A stretch of DNA of 64,000 nucleotides from Pseudomonas sp. B21-040 (GTDB taxonomy: Bacteria; Pseudomonadota; Gammaproteobacteria; Pseudomonadales; Pseudomonadaceae): assembly GCF_024748695.1 (NCBI RefSeq), contig NZ_CP087176.1, positions 4,519,501 through 4,583,500 of the forward strand. The letters are read 5' to 3'. A program made the translations under genes and the position numbers. This document shows positions 46,610-62,501 of this stretch, piece by piece; the stretch's first letter is position 1; the number at the start of each line of letters is the position of its first letter. The notes beneath the pieces were generated by a model. It was not told where the DNA came from and did no database searches. It saw only the letters and a list, made by a program, of their open reading frames with translations.

Positions 46610-46618
46610 GGCCATGCC

Positions 46619-47763: not shown

Positions 47764-48276
47764 TCAGCAATGCGCCCCGGCATGCTCAAGGCGATGAAAC
47801 AACCGGTTGAAGTACACCAGGCTGTCCCTCTCCCCGCGCACACCGACATTCGACAGCTCAACAAACATCACCGAATGCGACCCGACTTCCTTGCATTCGG
47901 TGATCCGTCCTTCCAGCTGCACCAACGCATCGCGCAGCAACGGCACGCCGGTGTCGCCTTCGTCCCACAGGTCCCAGGCAAAACGTTCGGCCATCGACAC
48001 TTTGGTCATGCCGGCGAAGTGTCGGGCCAGCTCTTCCTGCTCGCCACACAGCACGTTGACGCACAAGTGGCCGTTGGTGCGGAACACATCGTGGGTGGCG
48101 CTGTTGCGGTTCACACAGACCAGCACGGTCGGTGGCGAATCGGTGACCGAGCACACGGCGCTGGCGGTGATGCCGCATTGTCCGCCGGGGCCGTTGGTGG
48201 TGATGATGTTCACCGCAGCAGGCAGCTGCGCCATGGCGTTGCGAAAGTCGATTTGCTGCTGGCTCAGGTCGGCCAT
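47764..48276 (-). CDS. iacG: Flavin reductase of the IAA pathway
   Basis: The 170-residue HpaC-type flavin reductase has FRNAMAQLPAAVNIITTNGPGGQCGITASAVCSVTDSPP, LCVNVL, ARHFAGMTK and a C-terminal LVYFNRLFHRL. It supplies reduced flavin to a partner monooxygenase, here most likely IacA (56140-57303). It lies apart from the other iac genes, beyond the AraC and response-regulator genes, and diverges from the latter. The sequence alone would fit any HpaC-like reductase; the iac name rests on the complete set of neighbours. Confidence 0.85.
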   Translation of the reverse strand: MADLSQQQIDFRNAMAQLPAAVNIITTNGPGGQCGITASAVCSVTDSPPTVLVCVNRNSATHDVFRTNGHLCVNVLCGEQEELARHFAGMTKVSMAERFAWDLWDEGDTGVPLLRDALVQLEGRITECKEVGSHSVMFVELSNVGVRGERDSLVYFNRLFHRLEHAGAHC

Positions 48277-48396
48277 GTCGATGCCCCTTCCTTCAGGAGG
48301 ACCGTCGTTGCGCGGCCCCTTGTTGTTGGAACAAGATTAAGGCCCGGCGCGGCGCGCGACCATTCTGACGATCCCCATGGCGAGGTAGGCTTTCCG

Positions 48397-48420
48397 CTAG
48401 TCGACTAGGTGGTTTCTTTA
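48397..48420. promoter_or_regulatory. Palindrome and shared motif in the iacG/response-regulator gap
   Basis: CTAGTCGACTAG (48397-48408) is a perfect 12-bp palindrome and runs into CTAGGTGGTTTCTTTA (48405-48420). The latter matches 14 of 16 bases with a motif upstream of iacA (57424-57439, minus strand). The site lies roughly 120-130 bases from both divergent start codons. It is a candidate operator for the FixJ-type regulator. Confidence 0.5.
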
Positions 48421-48535
48421 TCGTCAGGGCCCACGGCAGTGGGTATTCTGCTACTAAGCTCAGTGATGAGCTGATGTCCGCCGCAGCGTGCACGCGTGCG
48501 AAAACAATAATTAGAAATTCTCGTGGCAGTCCCAG

Positions 48536-49165
48536 ATGGAAACCCGCAAACCGATTGTGTATATCGTCGATGACGACAAAGACCTGCGCACCTCATTGGC
48601 GTGGTTGCTGGAGTCGGTCAGTGTGCAGGCGCAATGCTTTGCCGGCGCTGAAGAGTTCCTGAGCCAGTACGACCCCAAGCAACCGGCGTGCCTGGTGCTG
48701 GACGTGCGCATGCCGGAAACCAGCGGCTTTCAGTTGCAAGAAATCCTCAACCAGCGCGGCAGCACCCTGCCGACGATTTTCGTGTCGGCCCATGGCGATA
48801 TTCCGATGTCGGTCACGGCGATGAAAAACGGAGCGCTGGATTTCGTCGAGAAGCCCTACAACCCGCAGCAGATGATCGACCGCATTCAGGCGGCGCTGAA
48901 GACCGCCGTGCATGCCCAGGCCGATCAGGAGCAACGTCAGAACCTGCAAGGCAAACTGGCGCTGCTGACCAGCCGGGAACGGGAAGTGTTGATGCTGGTG
49001 ATCGATGGCAAGGCCAGCAAGGTAATCGCCCGCGAGCTGAACATCAGCGTCAAAACCGTTGATGTGCACCGCACCAAGATCAAGGAAAAGATGGGCGTGA
49101 CCAGCATTGCGATGCTGGTGCGCGAGGTGTTGCATTTGCCGGTGGATGAACCTGCCCGGCACTGA
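48536..49165 (+). CDS. FixJ/NarL-type response regulator of the iac region
   Basis: The 209-residue regulator has a receiver domain (Asp12/13, phosphoacceptor Asp56 in LVLDVRMPETSG, Lys106 in FVEKPYNP) and a LuxR-type helix-turn-helix (about 140-200, LTSREREVLMLVIDGKASKVIARELNISVKTVDVHRTKIKEKMG). FixJ-like regulators (StyR, TodT, NodW) commonly control aromatic catabolism. No kinase is adjacent; the soluble PAS kinase at 57545-59026, across the iac operon, is the obvious partner. It diverges from iacG. Confidence 0.9.
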   Translation: METRKPIVYIVDDDKDLRTSLAWLLESVSVQAQCFAGAEEFLSQYDPKQPACLVLDVRMPETSGFQLQEILNQRGSTLPTIFVSAHGDIPMSVTAMKNGALDFVEKPYNPQQMIDRIQAALKTAVHAQADQEQRQNLQGKLALLTSREREVLMLVIDGKASKVIARELNISVKTVDVHRTKIKEKMGVTSIAMLVREVLHLPVDEPARH

Positions 49166-49190
49166 CCTTAATCTTCGGCGGTCTTCAGGC

Positions 49191-49270
49191 CGCCATCGCG
49201 GGCAAGCCCGCTCCCACAGTTGATTTGTGGCGTTCACAAAATCACTGTGGGAGCGGGCTTGCCCGCGATG
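49191..49270. repeat. REP pair (inverted)
   Basis: CGCCATCGCGGGCAAGCCCG and GAGCGGGCTTGCCCGCGATG face each other between the convergent response-regulator and AraC genes. Confidence 0.85.
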
Positions 49271-49286
49271 AGGTCGTCACAATTAG

Positions 49287-50204
49287 TCAGTGACTGTAGC
49301 GCTTGCGATATTCACCTGGTGACACGCCAAAGCGCGACTTGAACGCTGAGGAAAAGTAGCTCGAATCCGAGAATCCCCACGCGTAGCACAGCGCCGACAG
49401 CTTCTGCTCGACATCCGAACGGCGCAGGTTTTCGGCGCAGAAATCCAGGCGTCGATGCTTGATGTATTGCGCCACCACCAGACCACGCTTGGAAAACATC
49501 CGGTACAGCCCGCGCACCGAAATCCCCACCTCACGGGCAATCAGCTCCGGGCACAGTTCTTCAGCACTGATGTGCTCGTCGATGTAAGCGATGGTTTTAC
49601 GAAATTGCCGCTCGTGGGCATCCACGCTGGCGTCGCGAGCGCTGATACCCGGCAACAACAGGCTGACCAGCGCGTCGAGCACCGCTTCGCTTTCCTGCAT
49701 GTCCAGGCTTTGATGCTGCCGCGTTTCCAGGACCATGCGGTTGGCCAGCGCAGCCAGTGGCGTGGTGGCCGCAATGCGCGTGGCGCAGTTGAGCGCGTTG
49801 AAGTGCGAACCGCGCTGCACCACCTGGCGCGGCAAAATCAGTGACAACTGCCGGGAGTCTTCGTTGTAGGTCATGTCACTGGGTTGGCAGGCGTCGATCA
49901 GCGCAATGTCACCACAGCCCAATTGGGCGCGGTTGTCACCCTGTTCGAGTTGCGAGCTGCCGCGCAGTTGGAACACTGCGTAGTAGTGGCCGTCGCTGCT
50001 GGTGCTGACGTCTTTGCTGGTGCGATACAAATGCACGTGGGCCATGTCGACCACGCTGAGGTTGATCGCGCCGCTGCGAAACTCCGCCAGTTCACCGTAG
50101 AAATTCGTGTCCAGTGCGCGGGCGTCGAAGCGCCCACAGGCCTGATTGACCTGACTTAACCAACTTTCAAATGCATCGTTGCGCAGTGCCGATGAAGTAA
50201 TCAT
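49287..50204 (-). CDS. AraC-family regulator, FeaR/AraC_binding_2 type
   Basis: The 305-residue protein has an N-terminal AraC_binding_2-type effector domain (about 15-180, HVHLYRTSKDVSTSSDGHYYAVFQLRG reads as this family) and a C-terminal AraC DNA-binding domain (about 200-303, VGISVRGLYRMFSKRG and LCYAWGFSDSSYFSSAFKSRFGVSPGEYRKRY). FeaR, which controls aromatic amine oxidation in E. coli, belongs to this type. Its position between the iac genes and the response regulator suggests local control, and it could alternatively regulate the nearby amine dehydrogenase genes. The effector is unknown. Confidence 0.87.
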   Translation of the reverse strand: MITSSALRNDAFESWLSQVNQACGRFDARALDTNFYGELAEFRSGAINLSVVDMAHVHLYRTSKDVSTSSDGHYYAVFQLRGSSQLEQGDNRAQLGCGDIALIDACQPSDMTYNEDSRQLSLILPRQVVQRGSHFNALNCATRIAATTPLAALANRMVLETRQHQSLDMQESEAVLDALVSLLLPGISARDASVDAHERQFRKTIAYIDEHISAEELCPELIAREVGISVRGLYRMFSKRGLVVAQYIKHRRLDFCAENLRRSDVEQKLSALCYAWGFSDSSYFSSAFKSRFGVSPGEYRKRYSH

Positions 50205-50301
50205 GACCGCAAGGCCTCACGTCAGTTTTATTGTTATTTTTCGACCGCTTCGTCGAGCGGTTCGATGAATACCGGTTTCGTGACCGTCGCCTCCTTAGAC
50301 G

Positions 50302-50332
50302 GTCGTGGGGCGTCGATTTAATCGACTCCCAC
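50302..50332. promoter_or_regulatory. Hairpin and palindrome between iacF and the AraC gene
   Basis: CGTGGG and CCCACG flank the near-perfect palindrome GTCGATTTAATCGAC (50312-50326, one central mismatch), giving a stem without a U-tract. It could be the 3' structure of the iacF transcript or an operator for the AraC gene. A second dyad, CGACCGCTTCGTCGAGCGGTTCG, lies at about 50239-50261. Confidence 0.45.
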
Positions 50333-50355
50333 GCAATGTTTCCAGGGATTTGCGC

Positions 50356-51306
50356 TTACAGGTCCAATACCAGACGAGCGGACAACGCTCGTGAAACGCA
50401 GGCACAAATTTGCTTGTTGCCCGCTTTTTCTTTGCTCGACAAGCAGTTATCCCGGTGTTCCGGAACCCCGTCCAGGACCTCGACGATGCACGTGCCGCAG
50501 ATACCTTCGCGACACTCGGTGTCGATGTCGCAGCCGTGGGCCTGGAGTACGTCGACCAGGCTGGTATTGGCCGGAATCTGCAGCACCACGCCGGAGCTGG
50601 CCAGTTCCACTTCAAAACCGCCGCTCGGGCCGGCATTGGCGGCCGGGTCGGCCTGGAAATGCTCCAGGTGAATCGCGTCTTCGCTACGGCTGCGGGCGGC
50701 CACTTCCACCACTTTGTTCATGAACGGCGCCGGGCCGCACGTGTAGACGTGGGCATCGCTGCCGGCCTGGTTCAGGCTTTGCGTCAATGCAGCGTCCATG
50801 TCACCCGGCTCGACGCCGTAATGGAACTGAACGTGATCGGCAAAGGTGCTGGCCAACAATTCGGAAAATGCCGCGTACTGCGGCGAGCGGGCGAAGTAAT
50901 GCAAACGATACGGTTGGCCACTTTCTGCCAGTCGATAGGCCATGCTCAACAGTGGCGTGACGCCGATACCGGCGGCGAACAGCACGTGCTCGGTGGCGGT
51001 CGGGTCGAGGCGGAACAGGTTGCGCGGGGCACCCATTTCCAGCTCCATGCCCTCTTCCACCTGCTCGTGCAGGGCCGCGGAACCACCGCGCGATTGCGCT
51101 TCTTTCTTGACCGCCACCAGATACGCACGGCGATCCTGCGGCGGACTGCACAGCGAATACTGACGAGTCACGCCGGTCGGCCCGGTCAGGTCGACATGCG
51201 CCCCCGGTTCATAAGCGTCGAGCGGCTGACCATCACTGCGCACGAGGCGAAAGGAACGGATATCCAGCGCTTCGTCGACGATCCTTTCGATCCTCACTTT
51301 CATCAT
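50356..51306 (-). CDS. iacF: Oxygenase ferredoxin reductase (class IA type)
   Basis: The 316-residue phthalate-dioxygenase-reductase-type protein has an FMN-binding domain (RQYSLCSPP near 49), an NAD domain (FAAGIGVTPLLSMAYRL near 110) and a C-terminal 2Fe-2S ferredoxin domain (CREGICGTC plus a later Cys in HRDNCLSS). It passes electrons from NAD(P)H to the Rieske oxygenase IacC/IacD. It lies downstream of iacE across a 263-base gap filled by an inverted repeat. The sequence is also VanB-like; the iac assignment is from context. Confidence 0.89.
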   Translation of the reverse strand: MMKVRIERIVDEALDIRSFRLVRSDGQPLDAYEPGAHVDLTGPTGVTRQYSLCSPPQDRRAYLVAVKKEAQSRGGSAALHEQVEEGMELEMGAPRNLFRLDPTATEHVLFAAGIGVTPLLSMAYRLAESGQPYRLHYFARSPQYAAFSELLASTFADHVQFHYGVEPGDMDAALTQSLNQAGSDAHVYTCGPAPFMNKVVEVAARSRSEDAIHLEHFQADPAANAGPSGGFEVELASSGVVLQIPANTSLVDVLQAHGCDIDTECREGICGTCIVEVLDGVPEHRDNCLSSKEKAGNKQICACVSRALSARLVLDL

Positions 51307-51349
51307 TGCATCACCTGAATTCGGTTGATTTTGTTAAATGAGCAGCCCT

Positions 51350-51547
51350 GTAGCAGCTGTCGAGCACCGCGAGGCTGCGTTCGCCGGTAGCAGCTGTCGA
51401 GCACCGCGAGGCTGCGTTCGGCTCGGTCCGCGCTCGGGCGAAGCAGCCGTCAATCCTGAAAACGCGATCTTCCTGAAACACCGCATCGCCTGATTTCACG
51501 ACTGCCTTGCAGCCGAACGCAGCCTCGCGCTGCTCGACAGCTGCTAC
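51350..51547. repeat. Long inverted repeat (GTAGCAGCTG family), copy 6, left arm duplicated
   Basis: The left arm (GTAGCAGCTGTCGAGCACCG onwards) occurs twice in tandem, at 51350-51386 and 51387-51420, before a single right arm ending at 51547. The element lies inside the iac operon, between iacE and iacF. Confidence 0.88.
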
Positions 51548-51569
51548 ATAAGCTGCGTCGAACGCTTTT

Positions 51570-52310
51570 TCAGCGCATGAACAACCCGCCATTGATGTCC
51601 CAGCACGCGCCGGTTACAGAGGCGGCGTGGTCGGCGACCAACAGCAAGACGCTGTCGGCGATGTATTCGGGGGCGCCAAGGGTGCCGGCCGGGATCACCT
51701 TCAGAATCTGCTCCAGACGCTCCGGGGCCACGGTTTCGTGCACGATCGGCAAGTCCAGTGGTCCTGGCGAAATGCTGTTGACCGTCACCCCTTGTGACGC
51801 CAGTTCGCGGGCGAATACTTTGGTCAGGGTCGCCACGCCGCCCTTGGCCGCCGCGTAATGCGCGCCGGTGGCGGTGCCGCCGTTCTGCCCGGCCAGCGAG
51901 GCGATGTTGACGATGCGACCAAAGCCGCGCTCGGCAAAGTGCGCGCCGAACACCTGGCAAGCCACGAACGTGCCGCGCAGGTTGATCGCCATCGACTCAT
52001 CGAACTCTTCGGGCGTGATGTCCATCAGCGCGGCCACTTTCGATTGACCGGCGTTGTTCACCAGAATGTCAGTGCCGCCCCAACGCTCGGCGAGCAGATC
52101 GCGGGCACGGACAAAGTCGGCCTTATTACGCACATCCAGTTCGACGGCGACGGCACTCGCGCCGCTGCTATCAAGCTCCGCCGCCAACCGCTGCACGCCA
52201 TCAAGGCGCACGTCGGCCAGGGCCACGCGATAACCCGCCGCGTGCAAGCGACGGGCGATGCATTCGCCGAGACCGCGCGAAGCGCCGGTCACCAGGGCTA
52301 CTCGGTTCAT
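51570..52310 (-). CDS. iacE: Short-chain dehydrogenase of the IAA pathway
   Basis: The 246-residue classical SDR has the NAD(P) motif TGASRGLGECIARRL near residue 8, NNAG (VNNAGQSK near 85), catalytic Ser in IVNIASLAG, and YxxxK in HYAAAKGG. It should oxidise or reduce an early hydroxylated indole-acetate intermediate. Note that the Tyr-Ala-Ala-Ala-Lys motif is intact. The start at 52310 is preferred: GAGG lies upstream and overlaps the iacD stop. An in-frame GTG at 52325 would also overlap iacD. Confidence 0.88.
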   Translation of the reverse strand: MNRVALVTGASRGLGECIARRLHAAGYRVALADVRLDGVQRLAAELDSSGASAVAVELDVRNKADFVRARDLLAERWGGTDILVNNAGQSKVAALMDITPEEFDESMAINLRGTFVACQVFGAHFAERGFGRIVNIASLAGQNGGTATGAHYAAAKGGVATLTKVFARELASQGVTVNSISPGPLDLPIVHETVAPERLEQILKVIPAGTLGAPEYIADSVLLLVADHAASVTGACWDINGGLFMR

Positions 52311-52321
52311 GGTGTTGGCCC

Positions 52322-52822
52322 TCACAGCAGGAAGCCGAGCGCGCTTAGGCTGTCGGTGGAGTTGATCAGGCGCACGACCTTGCGCTCCAGTTTCGCCACA
52401 CCGTCGGTGAAGCGAATCCGGTGGTTGAGGTCGGCCACGAACGGTGTGTGCACGCCGCGTTTGTAGGCGTACAGCACCTGCGCCGAATTCACTTCAACCA
52501 GATCCCCCGCCGCTTCCACCAGACGGAAACGCGAGACCGAGCGAATGGTTGTCGCCGCGTCCACCGCCGACGGCGAGTAGCCCGCAGTCAGGCGTTCGAT
52601 GCGCAGGTCACGCATGCGCGCATCGTCATAGGCGTAGTTGAGGGTCGCTTCGAAGTCTTCGGTGTCCGGGTCGATCGGCACGATGTACTTGCCGCTTTCG
52701 CTCCACAGGGTCGCCCATTCGGCGTAGTTCTTGTGGTCGAGCAGTTCGGCTTCGCGCCAGATGAATTCGATGGCCTGGGCCAACGGGCCGGAAAAACCGT
52801 TCAGGGTGTCGTGATTGCTCAT
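52322..52822 (-). CDS. iacD: Rieske dioxygenase small subunit
   Basis: The 166-residue beta subunit of an aromatic-ring-hydroxylating oxygenase has the NTF2-like fold with AIEFIWREAELLDHKNYAEWATLW near residue 20, WSESGKYIVP, and RVVRLINS-type C-terminal strands. It has no cofactor and supports assembly of IacC. The ATG at 52822 overlaps the iacC stop as ATGA, which favours it over the ATG seven codons upstream (52843). It is translated with iacC. Confidence 0.9.
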   Translation of the reverse strand: MSNHDTLNGFSGPLAQAIEFIWREAELLDHKNYAEWATLWSESGKYIVPIDPDTEDFEATLNYAYDDARMRDLRIERLTAGYSPSAVDAATTIRSVSRFRLVEAAGDLVEVNSAQVLYAYKRGVHTPFVADLNHRIRFTDGVAKLERKVVRLINSTDSLSALGFLL

Positions 52823-54102
52823 TGGCTCATCATCCTTTTCCACATGTCGTAGGCACCGCGCATGCCGCCTTCATCGGTGGCGTGGCTGACCTTGTCGCCG
52901 TTTTCAGCGATGATTTCGCGGTTCAAGCCGCGGTTGACCAGGATTGGCGCATCGACGCCGGCGTACGAGCCGCGCTGCACGCGGTCCCAGGCCTCGGCAT
53001 CGTCGGGGCTGCCGAAACCGAACGGGCCCTGGAAGTGTTCGTGAATACGCATGCGTTCGCGGTTGGCGATTTCCGGGCCACCGTCCATGCCGAGGGCGAC
53101 GTGGCGGATCTCGGTTTCGGTGACCGATACCGGACGCAGCACGCGGAAGAACGACATCGACATCGCCACGTTCGGGAACAGGTTCAAGTTGAACCCGGCG
53201 CCGTGCAGCGAGCGCACGATGCGGCGCACTTGATCCGCCGGCAGGGTTTTCGACAGTTCTTCAGTCACATGCGCAAAGCGCTCTTGCAGCTGTTCGGTGC
53301 CGTCGTCGTGATCGAGATCGACGTGTTCCGGCACCATCACCATCACGCTGTGGCCGTTGCCCAACGAATGGGTTACGGCTTGTTCGTCGGTCATGAACGA
53401 GAGCATTTCCGAGGTTTCTTCATCCACCGACGACATGAACGACTTGTGCACGATCGGGAAGTGGTAGCCGTCAGTGGTGTTTTCCAGCTGGATCTTCCAG
53501 TTGCCCTTGAAGCTGAACTTGTGTTCGCCCTGGGTTTTGATCGGGTAGCCGGCGCCCTGTTTCATGAACAGGTCCATCCAGTGTTTGGCGCCGCCGAGGA
53601 AGTCTTCCAGCGGTTCGATCTCGTCGTTGTAACTGGCGAAAACCATACCGGCGTAGCGTTCAACGCGCAGGCTGGTCAGCGGCAGTTCGGACTTTTCCAG
53701 AATGCCTTCGTAGCCGTCCGGGTACGGCAGCGCGCGCAGTTTGCCGTCCAGTCCATAGGACCAGCTGTGGTACGGGCAGGTGAAACCGGTGGCGTTGCCT
53801 TTGTGTTTTTCGCACACTGTGGCGCCACGGTGCCGGCAACGGTTTTCAAGAACATTGATGGTGTTCTTCTTGTCGCGCACGACAATCACCGGGCGACGGC
53901 CAATGGTGGCGGTCTTGAAGTCGCCGCTGTTGCGCACTTCGCTTTCGTGGGCGACCCACACCCAGGTGCGGTAGAAAATCTTTTCCAGCTCGGCTTCGAA
54001 CAGCGCCGGGTCGTTGTACAGCGAGACGTCGACGCGGTCGTGCTCGACCAGTTCGTCAGGGCTTTTCGACGTAGCGATCAGCCGGTATTCATGAGTGCTC
54101 AT
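52819..54102 (-). CDS. iacC: Rieske dioxygenase large subunit
   Basis: The 427-residue alpha subunit has the Rieske cluster ligands Cys89-x-His91 and Cys109-x-x-His112 (CRHRG, CPYHSW) and the mononuclear iron site with Asp211, His214 and His219 (TTDGYHFPIVHK), plus a later carboxylate in PDDAEAW. It acts with IacD and the reductase IacF on a late indole-acetate intermediate on the way to catechol. It is the fifth gene of the iacA-B-I-H-C-D-E-F run and is 20 bases after iacH. Confidence 0.91.
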   Translation of the reverse strand: MSTHEYRLIATSKSPDELVEHDRVDVSLYNDPALFEAELEKIFYRTWVWVAHESEVRNSGDFKTATIGRRPVIVVRDKKNTINVLENRCRHRGATVCEKHKGNATGFTCPYHSWSYGLDGKLRALPYPDGYEGILEKSELPLTSLRVERYAGMVFASYNDEIEPLEDFLGGAKHWMDLFMKQGAGYPIKTQGEHKFSFKGNWKIQLENTTDGYHFPIVHKSFMSSVDEETSEMLSFMTDEQAVTHSLGNGHSVMVMVPEHVDLDHDDGTEQLQERFAHVTEELSKTLPADQVRRIVRSLHGAGFNLNLFPNVAMSMSFFRVLRPVSVTETEIRHVALGMDGGPEIANRERMRIHEHFQGPFGFGSPDDAEAWDRVQRGSYAGVDAPILVNRGLNREIIAENGDKVSHATDEGGMRGAYDMWKRMMSQ

Positions 54103-54122
54103 GCGGTTCTCCTCATGGCTTT

Positions 54123-55271
54123 TTATGACTTCTTGTTAGGGATCGACCGTTCACCGGTCATGCTCTGTTGCAACTGCGCACCAAAGGCGCAGACCACTTC
54201 GTCCTGACCTTTGCGGCCAACAATTTGCAGGCCGACTTTCAGCCCGCCGCAATCCAGTTCCACCGGCACCGTCAGCGCCGGATGGCCGCTGAGGTTGAAT
54301 GGCCGTACCAGCGGCGTCATGCCGGCCACGGCTTTGCTCGCGCTGCGGGCTTCGACCAGTGTCGGCGGCAAACCCGGCATCGTCGGCAATAGCAGCACTT
54401 CAACGTTTTCCAGCGCGGCATCCACCTGCCGGGTGAAGCGCTCACGGACCTTTTCGGCTTCTGCCAGTTCGGCAGCGCTGGTGCGGCTGGCGGCCAGCAG
54501 ACGCAGTTCGACGTCCGCACCGATCAAGCCTTGACCGGTGAGATGACCGAACGCGGCCCAGTTTTCAAAATTGATCACGGTCAGGCCGGCGGCAAATGCG
54601 GCTTCGAATTCACTCAGTTGCACGGTGCTGCGGCGCCAACCGGCACGGTCGGCAGCAGCGCCCAGACACGCTTGCAAATGCGGATCGCAGGCGACATCGA
54701 GAAAGCCCACCGAGGCATTGGCCGATGGCAAACCCTGAGCCTGAAAGCCAGGGCAGATCACTTGCATCGCAGCGATCAAATCCGCCATGTCCGCCGCGAA
54801 GGGGCCCACGCAATCGAGGCTGGATTCAGCCGGATGCGCACCGACCCGACTGACACGGCCATAGGTCGGTTTCAACCCGGCAATGCCGCAGCACGCTGCC
54901 GGTACACGTACCGAACCACCCGTGTCGGAGCCGATGGCGATGTCTGCCAGCCCGGCCGCGACGGCTGCCGCCGAACCGCTGGAAGAACCACCGGGCACGC
55001 GGTCCGGCGCTTGCGGATTAATCGGAGTGCCGGTCCAGTCGTTGATGCCGGTGACGCCAAACGCCAGCTCGTGCATGTTGGTCTTGCCGACGATTTGCCA
55101 GCCCGCCGCGAGGATCGCATCGACCACCTCGGCGTTTTTCAGGGCCGGCAAAGCGCGAGCAAAGGCGCGGCTGCCGGATTGGGTCGGGTGGCCGGCAATG
55201 TCGATGGAATCCTTGATCGCGACCCGCTTGCCGCTGCCACCGAGTAGAAATTCGCTGATAAACGTACTCAT
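54123..55271 (-). CDS. iacH: Amidase of the IAA pathway
   Basis: The 382-residue amidase-signature enzyme has catalytic Lys20 in VAIKDSID, the cis-Ser/Ser pair in PGGSSSGSAAAVAAG and SDTGGSVRVPAACCG. Such enzymes hydrolyse amides. IacH has been proposed to act on an indole-acetate derivative, but it is not clearly essential for IAA breakdown. The ATG at 55271 overlaps the iacI stop (ATGA), and is preferred over an open extension running 49 codons upstream inside iacI. It is cytosolic. Confidence 0.89.
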   Translation of the reverse strand: MSTFISEFLLGGSGKRVAIKDSIDIAGHPTQSGSRAFARALPALKNAEVVDAILAAGWQIVGKTNMHELAFGVTGINDWTGTPINPQAPDRVPGGSSSGSAAAVAAGLADIAIGSDTGGSVRVPAACCGIAGLKPTYGRVSRVGAHPAESSLDCVGPFAADMADLIAAMQVICPGFQAQGLPSANASVGFLDVACDPHLQACLGAAADRAGWRRSTVQLSEFEAAFAAGLTVINFENWAAFGHLTGQGLIGADVELRLLAASRTSAAELAEAEKVRERFTRQVDAALENVEVLLLPTMPGLPPTLVEARSASKAVAGMTPLVRPFNLSGHPALTVPVELDCGGLKVGLQIVGRKGQDEVVCAFGAQLQQSMTGERSIPNKKS

Positions 55272-55738
55272 GCGCCCAGCACCGTGTTGAACAAACGTTG
55301 TGTGCGGAAATGCGCGATCAGCCAGACACCGTCGACGCGCTGGAAATCGATGTTCAAGCGCGTGCCGAACAATTCGCTGCGGCCATCGGCATAGGTTGAA
55401 ATCTGCTGCATGATCCACTGCCCTTGGGCCGTGCTGCCGTCGACCACAATCGACTCGCTGGTGAGGTAATGCAGGTTCAGCGCAAAGTGTTCGGACGGCG
55501 GCAAGTAGCTGCCGACAAACGCAGCCACGGCGTCACGTCCGCGATGCTGGCCAAAGGTCTGCACCGTCTGGCTGCCGATGCCTTCCCAGATCGCGTCTTC
55601 GCTGAACAATTCAGCCAGTTCACGCACCTGCGTCGGTGCCCTCGGCACATCGCACAGGTCCATGTAGCGCGCCATCAAGCGGCGCACCTGGCTCTCCCCT
55701 TCCAGCGTTTCAAGACGCTGCAGCACGGCCTCGTTCAT
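55268..55738 (-). CDS. iacI: SnoaL/NTF2-like small protein
   Basis: The 156-residue NTF2-like fold protein resembles SnoaL/ring-hydroxylase-beta proteins: LMARYMDLCDVPRA, ELFSEDAIWEG, and a C-terminal TRLNIDFQRVDGVWLIAHFRTQRLF. It may be an accessory or an isomerase-like enzyme; its exact step is unknown. It starts three bases after iacB and overlaps iacH by four bases, so expression is tied to both. Confidence 0.87.
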   Translation of the reverse strand: MNEAVLQRLETLEGESQVRRLMARYMDLCDVPRAPTQVRELAELFSEDAIWEGIGSQTVQTFGQHRGRDAVAAFVGSYLPPSEHFALNLHYLTSESIVVDGSTAQGQWIMQQISTYADGRSELFGTRLNIDFQRVDGVWLIAHFRTQRLFNTVLGA

Positions 55739-55741
55739 GGT

Positions 55742-56113
55742 TTAAACCTTGGCTGCATCAGGAATGGTCAGTGGGCGGCCGATGCGCGCTTCGACCTTGG
55801 CGTAGCGCCACAGGCTGTATTCGTTCACCGGCGTAGTGCGGAACAGGTTGCAGGCGTCGATCACCGTTTGATGGCAGTCGACGTCGGCCATGATGTAGAC
55901 GGTCCACGGCGAGGTGGTGGACGGGCCGACCATCAAGCGGTCATCGTCCATCGCGCCCAGCACGGTGATACCCGGCAGGGCGCCGAGCGAGCCCATCATC
56001 TGGCTGAAGCCTTTCCACACGCTCAGGCCTTCGCCGGTTGGCAGGTCGAAAAAGTTCTGGGTGATGCCGATGCAAAAGACGACGCGCAGCGGTTCTTGAG
56101 TGGTCTGGGACAT
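55742..56113 (-). CDS. iacB: IacB family protein
   Basis: The 123-residue protein has no signal peptide. It matches the small IacB family found only in iac clusters, with NFFDLPTGEGLSVWKGFSQMMGSLG, GITVLGAMDDDRLMVGPS and WTVYIMADV. The alpha/beta sandwich pattern suggests a dimeric ferredoxin-like (EthD/muconolactone isomerase-like) fold, so it may act on a reactive intermediate. It lies 26 bases after iacA. Confidence 0.87.
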   Translation of the reverse strand: MSQTTQEPLRVVFCIGITQNFFDLPTGEGLSVWKGFSQMMGSLGALPGITVLGAMDDDRLMVGPSTTSPWTVYIMADVDCHQTVIDACNLFRTTPVNEYSLWRYAKVEARIGRPLTIPDAAKV

Positions 56114-56139
56114 GGGACTTGATCCTTGAAATAGAGGGT

Positions 56140-57303
56140 TCAGATGTAGCCAGGGAATGGCGGCACACCGAGGAACACCGAACCGGCGCCGTCGTACAGG
56201 CCTTCACTGAGAAATGCGTGCTGGGTGACCACCATCGAATCGCGCAGGTAGCGCTGCAGTGGATGGCGCAGATAAATGGCGGTGGTGCCGGCCAGGCTGT
56301 ATGCGCTCTGCACCACGGCCGCACCGGCCTGGGACACGTGAATGGCGGACAGGCGCAGCAGGCTGGTTTGCTCTGGCGTGACCGGGTTGCCGGCGAGGAT
56401 CGAGTTCCACACCTGCTCGGTGGCGTTGTAGAAGAACCCGCGTGCGGCGGCCAGTTGCGCTTCGGCCTTGGCGATTTCAATCCGCACGTAAGCGCGGTCA
56501 GCCATCTTCGGCGCGCCTGTGATGCCGCTGCCGGCGGCCATGCTGCTGACTTCGTCGAGGGCGGCGCGGGCCAGACCGAGGTTGACCACGGCCAGCACTT
56601 GCGCAGCGTAGGCAATCGAGGGATAGCGGAACAACGGCTCGTCGATGGTGGCAGCACCGCCACGGATGAAGGTCCAGCGCTCATCGACGTGTTTGTCGGT
56701 GACGCGCAGGTCGTGGCTACCGGTGCCTTTGAGGCCGACCACGTCCCAGTTCTCGATGATGTCGACCTGATCCGCACGGAACACAGCGGTGCGTGGTTTG
56801 CCGCCGGCCGCGCCGATGCCGACACCGAGCAGGTCGGCGCCTTTGCAGCCGCTGGCGAATTTCCAGGTGCCGTTGACCTGCCAGCCGCCATCAACCGCTT
56901 CCGCCGGTTGCAACGGGAACAGGCCGCCGGCGAACACCAGATCAGGACTGTCCGCGTAGATTTCAGCGAGGGTTTCTGGCGGCAACGCAGCGAGATAAAC
57001 ACCGGCACTGCCGAAGCTCGCCACCCAGCCGGCGGACCCGTCGGCTTCAGAAATGCGTTCGATCATCTGCAGGAACAGCGCGGGGGCCAGCGCATCGCCG
57101 CCGAAGCATTTCGGCGTGGCGGCGCGGTAGATGCCCACTTGCTTGAAGCGCTCGATCATGTCCCGTGGCACATGGGAGCCGGCGTCGAATTCATCGCGAC
57201 GTTGGCGCACTTCATCCAGCACCCGCTGAAATTCCTGGCAGTGGACGCTGGTGTCGTCGACGCCTGGCAGAGGGTCTTTCTGCGCGGTAGCTGAACGCAG
57301 CAT
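56140..57303 (-). CDS. iacA: IAA-attacking flavin monooxygenase
   Basis: The 387-residue protein is a two-component flavin monooxygenase of the acyl-CoA dehydrogenase fold (HsaA/DszC/indole-oxygenase type): SEADGSAGWVASFGSAG near residue 90, WQVNGTWKFASGCKGAD near 140, and helical C-terminal half. It hydroxylates IAA in the first step, using flavin reduced by IacG, and is also able to turn indole into coloured products in related strains. The ATG at 57303 has GGAG upstream; the further 32 codons are not family-like. It is first in the operon. Confidence 0.9.
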   Translation of the reverse strand: MLRSATAQKDPLPGVDDTSVHCQEFQRVLDEVRQRRDEFDAGSHVPRDMIERFKQVGIYRAATPKCFGGDALAPALFLQMIERISEADGSAGWVASFGSAGVYLAALPPETLAEIYADSPDLVFAGGLFPLQPAEAVDGGWQVNGTWKFASGCKGADLLGVGIGAAGGKPRTAVFRADQVDIIENWDVVGLKGTGSHDLRVTDKHVDERWTFIRGGAATIDEPLFRYPSIAYAAQVLAVVNLGLARAALDEVSSMAAGSGITGAPKMADRAYVRIEIAKAEAQLAAARGFFYNATEQVWNSILAGNPVTPEQTSLLRLSAIHVSQAGAAVVQSAYSLAGTTAIYLRHPLQRYLRDSMVVTQHAFLSEGLYDGAGSVFLGVPPFPGYI

Positions 57304-57544
57304 GGGCTTCTTCTCCGTTGACTTGTTATTAGACGGAGCCTGCCTCGGGGCGAGGCGACCGTTGATGGGTTCAGTGTAAAAACCGCATCCGCTCGCCACT
57401 ATTGGTGCGTGTAGCCTCCCTGCTAAAGAAAACCCCTAGGCCCAGGCGGGTTACCTCTGAGCGCATCCCGAAGCGCAAGCCGGTATAAAACGCCATACTT
57501 CTACCTCACCCGTAGTGGATCCCTCCGTCGTCAAGGGCTGCGCG
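57304..57544. promoter_or_regulatory. Divergent iacA/kinase promoter region with shared motif
   Basis: This 241-base gap carries, on the minus strand, CTAGGGGTTTTCTTTA (57424-57439), close to the motif at 48405-48420, and next to it the partial dyad CCTGGGCCTAGG. It points toward iacA and lies at a similar distance from the start codon as the other copy does from its gene. TATAAAA near 57484 could be part of a kinase promoter. Confidence 0.45.
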
Positions 57545-59026
57545 ATGTACCTGCCAAAACCGAATGACTTCTACACCCTCATCGAAGCCATGCCGTTGTG
57601 CATCATTCTTCACGACGCGCAGAGCAAGGAGATCCTGTGGGCCAACGCCGCGGCCCTGGCGGCGCTCGGCTTTACCCTGGAAGAACTGACGCCGCTCAAA
57701 GCCCCGGACATGACCCGCAATGAGCCCAAATACCGACGTTCGGTGGGTTTGCGCTGGCTGGAAGGCGCCGCGCGCACGGGTCAGCGCGCCATCGAGTGGT
57801 GTTATCGCTCCAAGCAAGGCGTGGAAATTCTCTCCGAGGCGGTGGCGACGCTGGTGCACCTGGAAGGTCGCGATGTACTGATGGTGCAGTTCCGCGACAT
57901 CTCCAAGGAAGACCGGGTCAAGCGCGACCTCAAGCGCTTCGAAAGTCGCCTCAAGGCTTTTATGCAGGACCTGGCCGAAGGGGTGGCGGTGCTCGGGCCG
58001 GACGGTGAGATTCGTTTTATCAGCGACTCCGGTGCGCACTTGCTGCACAGCGAGGAGCCGGCGCTGATCGGTGAAAATTTCCTGACCTGGTGCGACGACG
58101 ATTCGCGCCAGCGCCTGTTGCAACAGTTGGCCGGCGAGACACCCGAGCACGCGCCCTTCAGCGTCCACTACCACGTGCAGCGACGTGACGGTGAATGGCG
58201 CTGGCATGAGGCAACGTGTCGTTTTATTGAAATTGAAGATGATCTGGTCGGGCATCTGCTGCTGTTTCGCGACGTCACCGAACAGGTGCAAGCCGAAGAA
58301 GCGCGGCGGGTTAGTGAGCAAAAGCTTGAATACCTGGCGCGCTATAACGCCATGGGCGAAATGGCCGTGGCGATTGCCCATGAGTTGAGTCAACCGTTGG
58401 CGGCCACGCGCAACTTCATCGAAGGCGCGGTGATCCGTCTGGGCCATGCTGACACCACCGAGCAAGGCGTGGCCTGGGGTTTGCAGAACGCGGTGCGGCA
58501 AATCGAGCATGCGTCGGTGATCATCAAGAGCGTGCGTGAATACGTGGTCAAGCTGGAGCAATCCGAAGAGCTGATCGACCTCAATGAGCTGCTACGCGAT
58601 TCCCAGTATTTCATCAGCCTGCGTGCCGACCCGAGCCTGATCAAGGTCGAGATCGTCACCAGCCCTGAACCGCTGCTGATCAGTTGCGAGAAGGTGTTGA
58701 TCGGACAGGTCATCCTGAATCTGGCCTTTAATGCCATTGAAGAGATGAGCGATTTACCGCCGGAACGACGCGTGCTGCGCATTCATGCCAGCGCCGACAA
58801 CGAGGTTGCGTTGGTGCGCATTGAAGACTGCGGTCGCGGCATCCAGGCCCAGGCGCAAGAGAAACTCTTCGACGGGTTCTTCTCGTCCAAAGTCAGCGGC
58901 AACGGCATTGGCCTGGCGCTGTGCAAAAACATCATCGGCCGCCATCGCGGGGATATCTGGGCGCAAAACCTGGAGCCTTGTGGCGCGGTGTTTACCTTCT
59001 CCCTTCCCCTCGCAAACCCCGCCTGA
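57545..59026 (+). CDS. Soluble PAS-domain sensor histidine kinase of the iac region
   Basis: The 493-residue kinase has no membrane segment. There are two PAS domains (about 10-118 and 135-245, FRDIS and FRDVTEQ ends), an H-box with His279 in AVAIAHELSQPLAATRNF, and N, G1 and G2 boxes (NLAFNAIEEM, EDCGRGI, GNGIGLALCKNIIGRH). The FixL/StyS-like layout fits cytosolic sensing of an aromatic compound. Its best partner is the FixJ-type regulator at 48536-49165. The ATG at 57545 has AAGGG upstream; a GTG ten codons earlier is less likely. It diverges from iacA. Confidence 0.9.
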   Translation: MYLPKPNDFYTLIEAMPLCIILHDAQSKEILWANAAALAALGFTLEELTPLKAPDMTRNEPKYRRSVGLRWLEGAARTGQRAIEWCYRSKQGVEILSEAVATLVHLEGRDVLMVQFRDISKEDRVKRDLKRFESRLKAFMQDLAEGVAVLGPDGEIRFISDSGAHLLHSEEPALIGENFLTWCDDDSRQRLLQQLAGETPEHAPFSVHYHVQRRDGEWRWHEATCRFIEIEDDLVGHLLLFRDVTEQVQAEEARRVSEQKLEYLARYNAMGEMAVAIAHELSQPLAATRNFIEGAVIRLGHADTTEQGVAWGLQNAVRQIEHASVIIKSVREYVVKLEQSEELIDLNELLRDSQYFISLRADPSLIKVEIVTSPEPLLISCEKVLIGQVILNLAFNAIEEMSDLPPERRVLRIHASADNEVALVRIEDCGRGIQAQAQEKLFDGFFSSKVSGNGIGLALCKNIIGRHRGDIWAQNLEPCGAVFTFSLPLANPA

Positions 59027-59048
59027 CACCCAAATCCCACGCCGGCCT

Positions 59049-59179
59049 GTAGCAGCTGCCGAAGGCTGCGTCCGGCTGCGCAGCAGTCGTAAAACCAGAG
59101 CGCGCGGTGTGTCAGAGGGACCGTGTCATCAGGGTTTACGACTGCTTCGCAGCCGGACGCAGCCTTCGGCAGCTGCTAC
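59049..59179. repeat. Long inverted repeat (GTAGCAGCTG family), copy 7
   Basis: The arms GTAGCAGCTGCCGAAGGCTG and its complement lie 23 bases after the kinase stop. The following 200 bases up to aauB hold no gene and must contain the amine dehydrogenase promoter. Confidence 0.85.
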
Positions 59180-59386
59180 AGGTATGCCGCGTTGCAGGCT
59201 TCGGCAGAAGCCACAGGTGCGCCGCGTTTGCAGTGCTTTTCGCCGGTTTTCCGCGACTGGCACAGACACACAAACACTTGGCAGCCACAGCAATTCCAGG
59301 GGTTTCCCGGCGAGGCAGAATCGAATTGTAAAAATCTGCCCAAGCACCCGCGATCTGCGTGAATAACAATTCAGGGAGTTCCCCTA

Positions 59387-60535
59387 ATGCGAACCAACAG
59401 GATCAACGTACAGTCAGCGCTAGGTCTGAGCCTGCTTGTACTCGGCTTGACCAGCGCCCGTGCGGACCTGCCGGCTGACACCATCGGCCAGACCGTTTTG
59501 GCGTTTCCGCCAGAAGCTCACCGGGCGTATATCGTCGACGTCGAATTCGACAGTTTCGTGGCTGGCCGCGTCACCGTGGTCGACCCCGACAAAAAACGCA
59601 TCCTCGGTATGGTGCCGACGGGCTTTGCCGCGCCTTCGACGCTCAGCCGCGACAAGAAAACCCTCTACAGCGCCGACATCTTTTACTCGCGCGGCACCCG
59701 CGGCACGCGCACCGATGTGCTGACCGCGTGGGACACGTCGACCCTGGCGCCGGCCTGGGAGCTGTTGATTCCGACCAAGCGGGCCGAATCGCTGACCCAG
59801 CGCTTTGGCTTGGGCACCAGCAGCGATGACCGCTTCGTCTACGTCTACAACTTCACGCCGTCGACGTCGGTGACCGTGGTCGACACCCAGACCAAGTCGG
59901 TCGCCGGTGAACTGGCGATTCCGGGCTGCGTGCTCAACTACCCGGTCGGCGCTCGTCGCTTCGCTTCTCTGTGCGGCGATGGCAGTTTGCAGGTGATCAC
60001 GCTGAACGATCAGGGCCAGGAAACCGCGCGCAGCCGCACGCCGTTCTTCGACCCGAATGCTGAAAAGCTCATCGAGCGCGCGGTAAACGTCGGCGATACG
60101 TACTACTTCACCACCACGACCGGCACCGTTCGCCCGGTGGATTTCTCGGCCGATGCGCCAAAGATCCTGCCGTCGTGGTCGTTGACCACCGACGCGGAAA
60201 AGAAAGCCGGTTGGGCACCAGGTGGCTGGCAGTTGATGGCCGTGGCGCCGAAGCTCGACCGTTTGTACGTGCTGATGCATGACGCGCACGAACCGATGAA
60301 GTGGGAAGACCCGAGCCCGCTGATCTGGGCGTTCGACCTCAAGACCCACAAAAAAGTGGCGACGCTGGAAGCGCCGGCGCCGGTCTGGAGCATGCAAGCC
60401 ACTGGCGATGACAAGCCGCTGTTGCTGGGCGCCGACGTCGAGGGCGGTTTGCAGATTTTTGATCTGAAGACCAACAAGCTCACCGCCAGCATGCCAAAAG
60501 TCGCCAAAACCGCGACTCAGGTCATGAGCTACTAA
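59387..60535 (+). CDS. aauB: Aromatic amine dehydrogenase heavy subunit
   Basis: The 382-residue periplasmic beta-propeller subunit of a tryptophan tryptophylquinone amine dehydrogenase has a signal peptide (about 1-26, SARA/D). It then has family strands such as AYIVDVEFDSFVAGRVTVVDPD, GFAAPSTLSRD, YSRGTRGTRTDVLTAWD, GTSSDDRFVYVYNFTPSTSVTVVD and a DAHEPMKWEDPSPLIWAFD region near 300. With AauA it oxidises primary amines to aldehydes. GGGAG precedes the ATG. It heads aauB-mauE-mauD-aauA. Confidence 0.91.
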   Translation: MRTNRINVQSALGLSLLVLGLTSARADLPADTIGQTVLAFPPEAHRAYIVDVEFDSFVAGRVTVVDPDKKRILGMVPTGFAAPSTLSRDKKTLYSADIFYSRGTRGTRTDVLTAWDTSTLAPAWELLIPTKRAESLTQRFGLGTSSDDRFVYVYNFTPSTSVTVVDTQTKSVAGELAIPGCVLNYPVGARRFASLCGDGSLQVITLNDQGQETARSRTPFFDPNAEKLIERAVNVGDTYYFTTTTGTVRPVDFSADAPKILPSWSLTTDAEKKAGWAPGGWQLMAVAPKLDRLYVLMHDAHEPMKWEDPSPLIWAFDLKTHKKVATLEAPAPVWSMQATGDDKPLLLGADVEGGLQIFDLKTNKLTASMPKVAKTATQVMSY

Positions 60536-60548
60536 ACGAGGTTCGGCC

Positions 60549-61088
60549 ATGCTTTTAGATCCGATCTTCATCATTGCCTGCGCCCTCACCATTGCGGTGT
60601 TGCTGGCCAGTGCCGCGACGCACAAGGTGCGCGCTCCGGCACGCTTTGCCAAACAGTTGGCGGACTACCAACTGCTGCCCGACGCGCTGGTGCGTCCCGT
60701 TGCCCGTGTGATCCCGGTGGTAGAGCTGGCGATCGCGTTTGCGCTGCTGGTGCCGGTCAGCCGGCATTGGGCAGCGTTGACGGCGGCCAGCCTGATTGCG
60801 CTGTATGCCGCCGCCATTGGCATCAACCTGTGGCGCGGTCGCCGCGACATCGACTGCGGCTGTGCCGGTCCGGACCAGGCGCAACCGCTGCGCCCGGTCC
60901 TGCTGCTGCGCAACAGCGTGCTAGTGGGGTTGGCGCTGTTGGCCAGCACCCTGCCGATGGCTCGCGACCTTGGTTTTTTTGATGGCTTCGTCACCGTTGC
61001 CGCCAGCGCCGTTGCGCTGCTCCTGTACGCCGCAGCCGATGGCTTGCTGGCGAACGCCCCTCTTCTGCTCAAACTGATTGGTAGGTGA
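60549..61088 (+). CDS. mauE: Methylamine utilisation protein MauE family
   Basis: The 179-residue membrane protein has four predicted helices and the MauE/DoxX-like pattern AATHKVRAPARFAKQLADYQLLP, VELAIAF and DIDCGCAGPD. The DCGC cysteines suggest a thiol redox function. In methylamine and aromatic amine dehydrogenase operons MauE is needed for the light chain, probably for its many disulfides. It starts 13 bases after aauB and ends three bases before mauD. Confidence 0.9.
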   Translation: MLLDPIFIIACALTIAVLLASAATHKVRAPARFAKQLADYQLLPDALVRPVARVIPVVELAIAFALLVPVSRHWAALTAASLIALYAAAIGINLWRGRRDIDCGCAGPDQAQPLRPVLLLRNSVLVGLALLASTLPMARDLGFFDGFVTVAASAVALLLYAAADGLLANAPLLLKLIGR

Positions 61089-61091
61089 TCA

Positions 61092-61712
61092 ATGGAAGGC
61101 TTAATTGTTTCCAACGTTTTGCTCTGGATTCTGCTCGCGGCCGTGGCGTTTGCCGTCATGGGCCTGGTGCGTCAGATTGGTGTCCTGCACGGCCGCCTGG
61201 CTCCGGCCGGGGCGCTGATGATGGACAAAGGCGTGGCGGTCAACGAAGCCGCGCCGCAAGTCACCGCGTCCGACCGTAACGGTCGCCCGGTGAACTTCGG
61301 TTATGCCGGCGAAAAGAATCAGCTGCTGTTCTTCCTCTCGCCGACCTGCCCGATCTGCAAATCGCTGTTGCCGGCGATCAAGTCCATTGCCAAGGAGCAG
61401 GCTGATCGCCTGGACGTGGTGTTTATCAGTGACGGCGACATGGACGCCCAACAAAAGCTGATCCGCGAACACAAACTGGAAGACGCCACCTACGTGGTCG
61501 GGCCGGAAGTCGGCATGACCTATCAGATCGGCAAGCTCCCTTACGCCGCCCTGATCGATAAGTCCGGCACCCTGCGCGCCAAAGGCCTGGTCAATTCCCG
61601 CGAGCACCTGGACAGCCTGTTCGAAGTCGAGCACCTGAAAAAGTCCACGCTGCAGGAATACCTCAACAGCCAGCCGCACCCACACGACCACAGCCACGGC
61701 CATAGCCACTGA
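61092..61712 (+). CDS. mauD: Thiol-disulfide protein MauD
   Basis: The 206-residue thioredoxin-fold protein is anchored by an N-terminal helix (about 8-26). It has the active-site Cys86-Pro-Ile-Cys89 in FFLSPTCPICKS and a cis-proline in KLPYAALID, and ends with the His-rich tail HPHDHSHGHSH. It probably works in the periplasm with MauE to form or isomerise the light-chain disulfides. The His tail could bind metal, an unusual ending worth noting. Confidence 0.91.
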   Translation: MEGLIVSNVLLWILLAAVAFAVMGLVRQIGVLHGRLAPAGALMMDKGVAVNEAAPQVTASDRNGRPVNFGYAGEKNQLLFFLSPTCPICKSLLPAIKSIAKEQADRLDVVFISDGDMDAQQKLIREHKLEDATYVVGPEVGMTYQIGKLPYAALIDKSGTLRAKGLVNSREHLDSLFEVEHLKKSTLQEYLNSQPHPHDHSHGHSH

Positions 61713-61731
61713 TTAAGGCAGGGAGATTTTT

Positions 61732-62253
61732 ATGAAACTGCTAGACCTGCTGTTCGAGCGCTCGACACGTCGAGTGGCCGACACCACCTCACGCCGCAAA
61801 TTGTTGTCGCGCATGGGTTCCTTGATGGTCGCCGGTGCCGCATTGCCGCTGCTGTTGCCGCTGGACCGCACCAGCAAAGCCCTGGCCGCCGATAACCCGA
61901 AAGCCGGTGACCCGGGCGATCCGAACAGCTGCGACTACTGGCGTTACTGCTCCATCGACGGCTTTCTGTGCAGCTGCTGCGGCGGATCGGTAACGTCCTG
62001 CCCGCCGGGCACCGAAGCCTCGCAAGTGACCTGGATCGGCACCTGCCGCAACCCGGCGGACGGCAAGGACTACATCATTTCGTACAACGACTGCTGCGGT
62101 AAGCAAAGCTGCGCCCAGTGCGCCTGCACCCGTAACGACAGTGAAGAACCGGCTTATCGCCCGTTCAACAACAACGATGTGAACTGGTGCCTGGCCGCCA
62201 AATCGCACATCTACCACTGCACCGTTTCGGTCATCCGTGGCGTCGCCGTTTAA
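61732..62253 (+). CDS. aauA: Aromatic amine dehydrogenase light subunit (TTQ)
   Basis: The 173-residue light chain has a long twin-arginine-type leader (SRRKLLSRMGSLMVAG at 20-35). The two tryptophans that form the TTQ cofactor are Trp101 (VTWIGTC) and Trp152 (VNWCLA), 51 residues apart as in methylamine dehydrogenase (57/108), with the catalytic/biogenesis aspartates Asp76 and Asp120 at matching distance. There are 14 cysteines, fitting the aromatic rather than the methylamine enzyme (12). It pairs with AauB to oxidise arylalkylamines in the periplasm. A strong terminator follows. Confidence 0.93.
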   Translation: MKLLDLLFERSTRRVADTTSRRKLLSRMGSLMVAGAALPLLLPLDRTSKALAADNPKAGDPGDPNSCDYWRYCSIDGFLCSCCGGSVTSCPPGTEASQVTWIGTCRNPADGKDYIISYNDCCGKQSCAQCACTRNDSEEPAYRPFNNNDVNWCLAAKSHIYHCTVSVIRGVAV

Positions 62254-62261
62254 CGCGCATT

Positions 62262-62297
62262 GCCGTCGGTTGCTCACGCAATCGACGGCTTTTTTTT
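62262..62297 (+). terminator. Intrinsic terminator after aauA
   Basis: A 12-bp stem (GCCGTCGGTTGC with GCAATCGACGGC, one G-T pair, loop TCAC) is followed by eight Ts. It separates the dehydrogenase operon from the cytochrome c gene. Confidence 0.92.
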
Positions 62298-62313
62298 GCC
62301 CAACGCAATCCCT

Positions 62314-62468: not shown

Positions 62469-62501
62469 ATAAACGTGTGTTTTACCGTAGAGGTGCTTGT
62501 C

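Follow-up and report, generated by a model that had tools for sequence, protein, structure and literature searches.

Why should a complete iac cluster, the products of which are expected to carry indole-3-acetic acid (IAA) to catechol, lie directly beside an operon for a tryptophan tryptophylquinone (TTQ) amine dehydrogenase? The question is raised by a stretch of 64,000 nucleotides of Pseudomonas sp. B21-040 (NZ_CP087176.1, positions 4,519,501 to 4,583,500, forward strand; hereafter the window, whose own numbering is used throughout), for which an initial annotation had proposed a block running from tryptamine through IAA to catechol. The analysis reported here indicates that the locus is probably an aromatic-amine front end, controlled by the activator FeaR, which feeds the Iac pathway (indole branch) and the Paa pathway (phenyl branch).

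All nine iac-type genes recognized by the initial annotation are present on the minus strand between 47764 and 57303: iacG (flavin reductase, 47764–48276), iacF (ferredoxin/NAD reductase, 50356–51306), iacE (short-chain dehydrogenase, 51570–52325), iacD (ring-hydroxylating dioxygenase beta subunit, 52322–52843), iacC (Rieske dioxygenase alpha subunit, 52819–54102), iacH (amidase, 54123–55271), iacI (SnoaL-like, 55268–55738), iacB (55742–56113), and iacA (flavin-dependent monooxygenase, 56140–57303). Assignments were made by family searches, complemented for iacH by its translation and for iacG by its match to the cluster of a genome resembling Pseudomonas putida 1290 (G244); iacB found no match in family searches and is 58% identical to its counterpart in that cluster. 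The true start of iacA is probably 57303, the open reading frame (ORF; to 57399) beginning 32 codons too far upstream, since the later ATG is where relatives (387 aa) start and since, in several of them, stop codons interrupt the part that matches 57303–57399. Two regulatory genes lie between iacG and iacF, a response regulator of the FixJ/LuxR type (RR; 48536–49165, plus strand; family searches) and a FeaR-type AraC activator (feaR; 49287–50204, minus strand; placed by tree and by the NCBIfam FeaR equivalog, 360.2 bits against a cut-off of 199). A PAS histidine kinase (HK; 57515–59026, plus strand; family searches), the presumed partner of the RR, is divergent from iacA. The operon aauB–mauE–mauD–aauA follows the kinase on the plus strand (59387–62253), as had been read, with 360 bp between the end of HK and aauB; it encodes the TTQ heavy chain (aauB, 59387–60535; Pfam Me-amine-dh_H), accessory proteins of the MauE type (60549–61088; PF07291) and MauD type (61092–61712; TIGR02661, 208.3 bits against a cut-off of 188.6), and the TTQ light chain (aauA, 61732–62253; PF02975). 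An ORF at 58785–59366, which overlaps the 3' end of HK in another frame and has no family match, was rejected as a gene.

Further members of the amine half lie on the other side of iacG. The aldehyde dehydrogenase (ALDH; 37134–38624, minus strand) that the initial annotation had tentatively placed between the two modules has a phenylacetaldehyde dehydrogenase as its closest solved relative (PDB 4o5h, 548.7 bits) and is preceded, in a putative operon with a FeaR box upstream, by the gene of a small c-type cytochrome (cytc2; 38673–39062, minus strand; Pfam Cytochrom_C, 41.8 bits). It is labelled phenylacetaldehyde-dehydrogenase-like and not StyD because its 657.8 bits to the NCBIfam StyD equivalog fall below the cut-off of 850. 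Divergent from cytc2 is an OprD-like porin (39303–40625, plus strand; named from its translation, NCBIfam giving no match). The plus-strand operon 44011–47641, overlooked earlier like feaR and the RR, encodes an APC permease (44011–45336; ethanolamine-permease-like, TIGR00908, 323 bits, below the cut-off of 381.75), a phospholyase-like protein of the class III aminotransferase fold (45329–46609), and a small-molecule kinase of the APH family (46619–47641; NCBIfam; PDB 6ef6, 159.9 bits). The closest solved relative of the second protein is a phospholyase (PDB 5g4i, 462.3 bits); an ethanolamine-phosphate phospho-lyase (PDB 6tor) scores 359.2 bits.

These units share a direct repeat, TGNCA-N16-TGNCA, and the amine half is a single predicted FeaR regulon. 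The repeat stands upstream of aauB in 124 of 125 loci (aauB at ≥55% identity; 101 distinct sequences; median position −131; shuffle expectation 0.004 per sequence), upstream of the APC permease gene in 10 of 11 loci, window included, and upstream of the porin in all 12 scored loci (10 distinct), the window being additional to these. Motif scans of the window gave boxes upstream of aauB (59258–59283, plus strand), 130 bp upstream of the permease–phospholyase–kinase operon (43881–43906, plus strand), and between the divergent porin and cytc2 genes, where the repeat faces both the porin (39190–39215, plus strand) and, about 115 bp upstream of cytc2, the cytc2–ALDH operon (39152–39177, minus strand). 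ALDH upstream regions carry it within 600 bp in only 25 of 39 cases because the cytochrome gene stands between; feaR upstream regions carry it in 8 of 56, that of the window not among them. The identical repeat, with its 21-bp step, is found upstream of Escherichia coli feaB and tynA, which we take to be FeaR targets. The 6.75-Mb genome contains a strict form, TGGCA-N9-AA-N5-TGGCA-N9-A, at only three places, all in the window (39190, 43881, and 59258; reversed control, 0). Among 22 further, hand-chosen genomes it was found in 12/12 with aau (27 sites) and in 1/10 without (1 site), the reversed control giving one site in total; a site is found no more than 3.5 kb from aauA in 11 of these 12, the exception being G244, none of whose three strict sites is at the aau promoter, where the repeat has TGTCA halves. 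Three of the strict sites, two in G244 and one in G276, are apparently due to chance. By count the loose motif is unremarkable in the window: it occurs 4 times where 1.87 are expected, and 16 of 100 shuffles give as many. Weight comes only from position, conservation, and the strict form. A spacing of 17 bases yielded only noise; 16 is the spacing.

The joining of the two modules recurs. In a sample of 398 Pseudomonas genomes (many named records repeat unnamed ones, so that a number of loci should not be read as a number of genomes), a TTQ light chain was found in 57, of the window type in 46 and of a distant type in 13, two genomes having both, and IacC in 80. An iac cluster is present in 43 of the 46 genomes with window-type aau and in 37 of the 352 without; for the distant type the figure is 3/13. 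Conversely, aau is present in 27/27 genomes with IacC of the window lineage (≥85%), in 16/53 with only the other IacC lineage (59–64%), and in 3/318 without iac (G128, G229, and the incomplete G315). The distance from iacC to aauA is at most 30 kb in 30/46. IacC of ≥95% identity occurs in 25/398 genomes, and in 24 of these iacC and aauA lie on one contig within 18 kb (G048 has them on two contigs); the order iacG–RR–feaR–iacF is fully visible in 23, G002 and G021 being cut by contig ends. Among the best 80 of 129 relatives, which are not an unbiased sample, iac lies within the 10-kb flank in 40, a lower bound. Comparison across Pseudomonas thus finds the adjacency in other genomes and not in this strain alone; confinement to the strain, one of the findings that were to count against the initial annotation, is not what was seen.

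Across the class, a TTQ light chain was found in 13 of 369 genomes, own included. Thirteen stretches from 11 of the other 12 (G517 gave three; G709, a short match, was left out) held the distant type only (45–58%) and were devoid of an iac cluster, so that the joining was seen here only in Pseudomonas. In L178 (G641, from a different genus of the class), phospholyase-like (52%), kinase-like (45%), and ALDH-like (36%) genes, the company kept in the window, stand directly upstream of a distant-type TTQ dehydrogenase. One genome (G131; C10 and C23) carries both deep iac lineages. Two loci (L149, G188; L148, G334) have an IacA-like gene (60–61%) beside an IacG-like reductase, the remaining iac genes except an IacF-like one lying outside the fetched stretch; they are a different monooxygenase cluster.

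The identity of the enzyme was assessed for both chains. The heavy chain scores 166.6 bits with aromatic amine dehydrogenase (AADH) and 139.4 with methylamine dehydrogenase (MADH) among PDB entries; the light chain scores 168.5 bits with AADH and at most 161.3 with MADH, a small margin. Both TTQ tryptophans, the base aspartate, and the threonine are conserved in AauA relative to chain D of PDB 2agl and 2i0r; crude motif counts for these four among 83 distinct light chains were 81, 69, 83, and 68. We infer the aromatic-amine activity of AauBA from the predicted regulon and from co-occurrence.

The pathway that we infer from the sequences, including its substrates, the use of tryptamine, FeaR binding, induction, co-expression, and flow between the halves, would run as follows. 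An arylethylamine would enter the periplasm, where AauBA, matured by MauE and MauD and passing electrons to c-type cytochromes, would oxidize it to the arylacetaldehyde, and the FeaR-controlled ALDH would convert the latter to the arylacetate. For tryptamine the product would be IAA, which the Iac enzymes would degrade to catechol (catA is present outside the window, at 2.84 Mb); phenylethylamine would share this front end and exit through paa. FeaR, answering the amine or the aldehyde, would drive aau, the porin, cytc2–ALDH, and the permease–phospholyase–kinase operon; iac is most likely under the HK/RR pair, with IAA or a product as the signal. The permease–phospholyase–kinase operon (44011–47641) may add a route by which hydroxylated arylethylamines (octopamine type) would yield arylacetaldehydes by phosphorylation and elimination, proposed from fold relatives and from the shared repeat.

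If this holds, a recurrent and misread neighborhood, iac beside 'methylamine' genes, becomes a testable pathway from tryptamine through auxin to catechol. The neighborhood occurs in many Pseudomonas species, root and leaf isolates included; close to plants, these bacteria could then produce auxin for a time and afterwards destroy it, and the operator common to the amine genes would be a simple handle to predict when. The locus would also be a natural experiment in how modules for amine oxidation, phenylacetate, and indoleacetate get clipped together.

Several observations weigh against a coupling of this kind. Among the 46 aau genomes, iac is on a different contig or over 30 kb away in 13 and missing in three, and the Fisher tests of co-occurrence ignore kinship. 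The FeaR box is absent from every scored iac upstream region (iacA 0/54, HK 0/70, iacG 0/28, RR 0/29, iacF 0/27), as it is from those of the chemotaxis gene next to the porin (0/26) and of the cytochrome gene 3' of aauA (0/126); iac therefore stands outside the predicted FeaR regulon, and linked control of iac and aau is unsupported. AauA is 57% identical to the Alcaligenes faecalis enzyme over 118 aa, and the 16 distant-type light chains listed, of 24, range from 50 to 63%; distant-type sequences being equally close, the light chain alone is no proof of aromatic specificity. Words starting with 'amine' are absent from the searched main texts of two papers on expression with IAA (PMC11630574, PMC8383072). 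The remaining points of this kind concern paa. Of the interpretation given in the initial annotation, the presence of both modules, the fact that they are joined, and the role of the ALDH between them are retained; the joining, however, is not wholly new, the two halves seem to lack a common promoter signal, and amines other than tryptamine are likely substrates.

The competing explanation that survives best, though we consider it unlikely, is that the front end serves phenylethylamine and tyramine for Paa and related pathways, iac being a neighbor through the clustering of aromatic genes and tryptamine at most a side substrate. PaaA exceeds the cut-off in 102/398 genomes, and paa is present in 42/46 genomes with aau and in 60/352 without, an association nearly as strong as that of iac; paa is found no more than 30 kb from aau in 10/46, and iac, aau, and paa stand together in four genomes (G042, G059, G260, G338). 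In the present genome 44 kb separate paaA from aauA, and near paa, beside PaaX, stands a second FeaR paralogue (57% identical; L287:1938–3861); the FeaR clades may mark the indole and phenyl branches. The closeness of the ALDH to phenylacetaldehyde dehydrogenases points the same way, as does E. coli, where feaR–feaB–tynA adjoins paa. Given that aau co-occurs with paa and is sometimes linked to it, substrates other than tryptamine are likely, and phenylethylamine may be the main one. However, aau tracks iac within genomes that have paa (39/46 with iac, 3/56 without), while among genomes with iac it is found in 39/46 with paa and 4/34 without. Four genomes (G021, G113, G247, G368) have aau and iac without PaaA over the cut-off, no aau genome lacks both pathways, and iac is found within 30 kb of aau more often than paa (30 against 10 of 46). 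The distant TTQ clade is weakly associated with paa (7/13 vs. 95/385, p 0.026). A front end feeding both branches is preferred here.

Less probable again is a single accidental junction in the ancestor of the clade, kept by descent and devoid of functional meaning. Most joined genomes do share one layout, with the full order visible in 23/25, and are close relatives, the kinship that the Fisher tests pass over. Yet at least five different junctions exist, two of them in the other of the two deep IacC lineages, each of which has aau-joined members. Besides the window layout (iac–HK–aau, feaR inside iac) these are iac–HK–OprD–aau–ALDH–feaR with no feaR inside iac (G042 and P. segetis, the view of P. 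segetis covering iacA to iacC only); aau–cytc–OprD–iacG–RR–iacF (P. schmalbachii); in the other lineage, iacI–OprD–feaR–cytc–aau–ALDH (G244, G264; feaR 52–53% and ALDH 48–50% identical to those of the window) and iacH-first clusters with, at a distance of about 10 kb, an ALDH (49%), an AraC-family gene (28–29% like FeaR and no more), OprD, and aau (G113, G247, G368); and, less surely, iacD–E–F beside aau–ALDH–feaR (Pseudomonas sp. A-1). P. citronellolis and P. delhiensis share the HK–aauB junction, with feaR–cytc2–ALDH on another contig. In G038, G049, and G211 the aau site lacks iac but a different iac cluster is present in the genome, and the distant TTQ clade shows no iac association. The remaining alternative is a methylamine dehydrogenase, the enzyme for which the TTQ family models are named and the reading given in 2019 to the genes of the P. 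putida 1290 island (PMC6624763). It is highly improbable: both chains miss the NCBIfam MADH equivalog cut-offs (heavy 171.1 vs. 454.45 bits; light 178.9 vs. 196.85 bits), both have AADH as closest solved relative (for the light chain by the small margin given above), the aau upstream region shares its repeat with E. coli tynA and feaB, and the predicted regulon includes a phenylacetaldehyde-dehydrogenase-like enzyme.

Loci with an incomplete iac were considered in their own right. G038, G315, and P. mandelii (L217; feaR and aauB side by side without iac) were rejected as an ancestral empty site; loss of iac is the better reading, as their FeaR sequences fall within the iac-bearing clade in the tree. 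In G211 (L079, the contig also recorded as P. migulae L202), iacG, RR, feaR, and HK are kept and iacA–F, H, and I are gone, which is likely a deletion relic.

The position of feaR inside iac allows a further, tentative proposal. Of 26 loci, 21 have a gap of 148–155 bp between iacF and feaR, four a gap of 60 bp, and one a gap of 176 bp; the distance between HK and aauB, by contrast, varies among 67 loci between 168 bp and 9 kb. No terminator-like site is listed between iacF and feaR in the window. It is conceivable, although we would sooner doubt it than assume it, that feaR is the last gene of an IAA-inducible iac operon, such that IAA, through the kinase, would raise FeaR and prime tryptamine uptake and oxidation in a feed-forward loop from product to precursor; the bacterium would then both make auxin from tryptamine and destroy it. 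Within the gap itself (50205–50355), GTCGAT-TAA-ATCGAC forms a perfect inverted repeat, and there is a second hairpin, which lacks a T run; this may be an operator or processing site.

Two known systems resemble the amine half. The FeaR system of E. coli (feaR, feaB, tynA) has a regulator of the FeaR family, the repeat with its 21-bp step, and amine oxidation followed by an ALDH, and adjoins an acid pathway; its amine step is a copper amine oxidase and its acid pathway paa, whereas the window has a TTQ dehydrogenase and Iac (indole). The aauBEDA genes of A. faecalis presumably stand in the order of the window and are followed by a small cytochrome c; the heavy chain is homologous but clearly diverged, and the window has a FeaR box, ALDH, porin, and iac alongside aau.

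For iac, the nearest published case is P. putida 1290, the iac genes of which lie in an island of about 30 kb with genes for the use of methylamine and phenylacetaldehyde (PMC6624763), so that the physical joining, put forward as the novel point by the initial annotation, is partly in print. The nine functions are identical, and the 1290-like G244 equals the published cluster in gene order and in its iacCDF duplication; all nine Iac proteins of the window match G244 at 41–63% identity. G244, where iacI–OprD–feaR–cytc–aauADEB–ALDH stand in a row, differs from the window in belonging to the other deep iac lineage (IacA 55%, IacC 63% identical), in its feaR (52%) lying outside iac, and in its different ALDH (48%). 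The iac regulator of P. putida 1290 is a MarR protein, according to PMC11630574; no MarR-type IacR is among the ORFs scanned in the window cluster, which has the FixJ-like RR and the PAS kinase instead. That paper describes a putative two-component iac variant in four Pseudomonas and, for Pseudomonas and Paraburkholderia phytofirmans PsJN, a LuxR-type regulator and sensor kinase that replace MarR, as in the window; it also reports induction of the iac operon in strain Root71 grown on IAA, and a record linked to Root71 by name alone (L232) has the iac–HK–aau layout of the window. Words starting with 'AraC' are absent from its main text as searched. PMC8383072 concerns strain LY1; P. composti LY1 in the genome set has two aau loci (L254, L267), its identity with the published LY1 not being settled. 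PMC12538310 describes a different indole island. Among the open-licence PMC matches listed, with the iac papers of 2008, 2013, and 2017 outside that scope, none was seen to present the iac–aau link as amine catabolism, a shared FeaR operator, feaR placed within iac, an arylamine-to-IAA reading, or an arylethanolamine phospholyase route. The joining is thus partly known from the 1290 island; the FeaR operator, feaR within iac, and the arylamine-to-IAA reading are apparently new, not having been seen in print among the matches listed.

Minor features complete the island. A methyl-accepting chemotaxis protein, named by sequence reading alone, is encoded at 40831–42957 (plus strand); its orthologs and those of the porin keep adjoining aau in many genomes, as do those of the ALDH. 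No MauG-like di-haem protein was matched among the ORFs scanned around aau (59387–63023), and no genome-wide search for it was made. A terminator-like hairpin (12-bp stem, then T8) lies 3' of aauA (62262–62289, plus strand), in a region where terminator-like sites show no excess (14, shuffle mean 16.4). The gene of a monohaem c-type cytochrome (62475–63023, plus strand) follows aauA here and in most mapped relatives; past the aau cytochrome come genes for a methyltransferase and a QEGLA/MATCAP protein (L002:191–2361) and then an IS transposase (L002:6021–7418).

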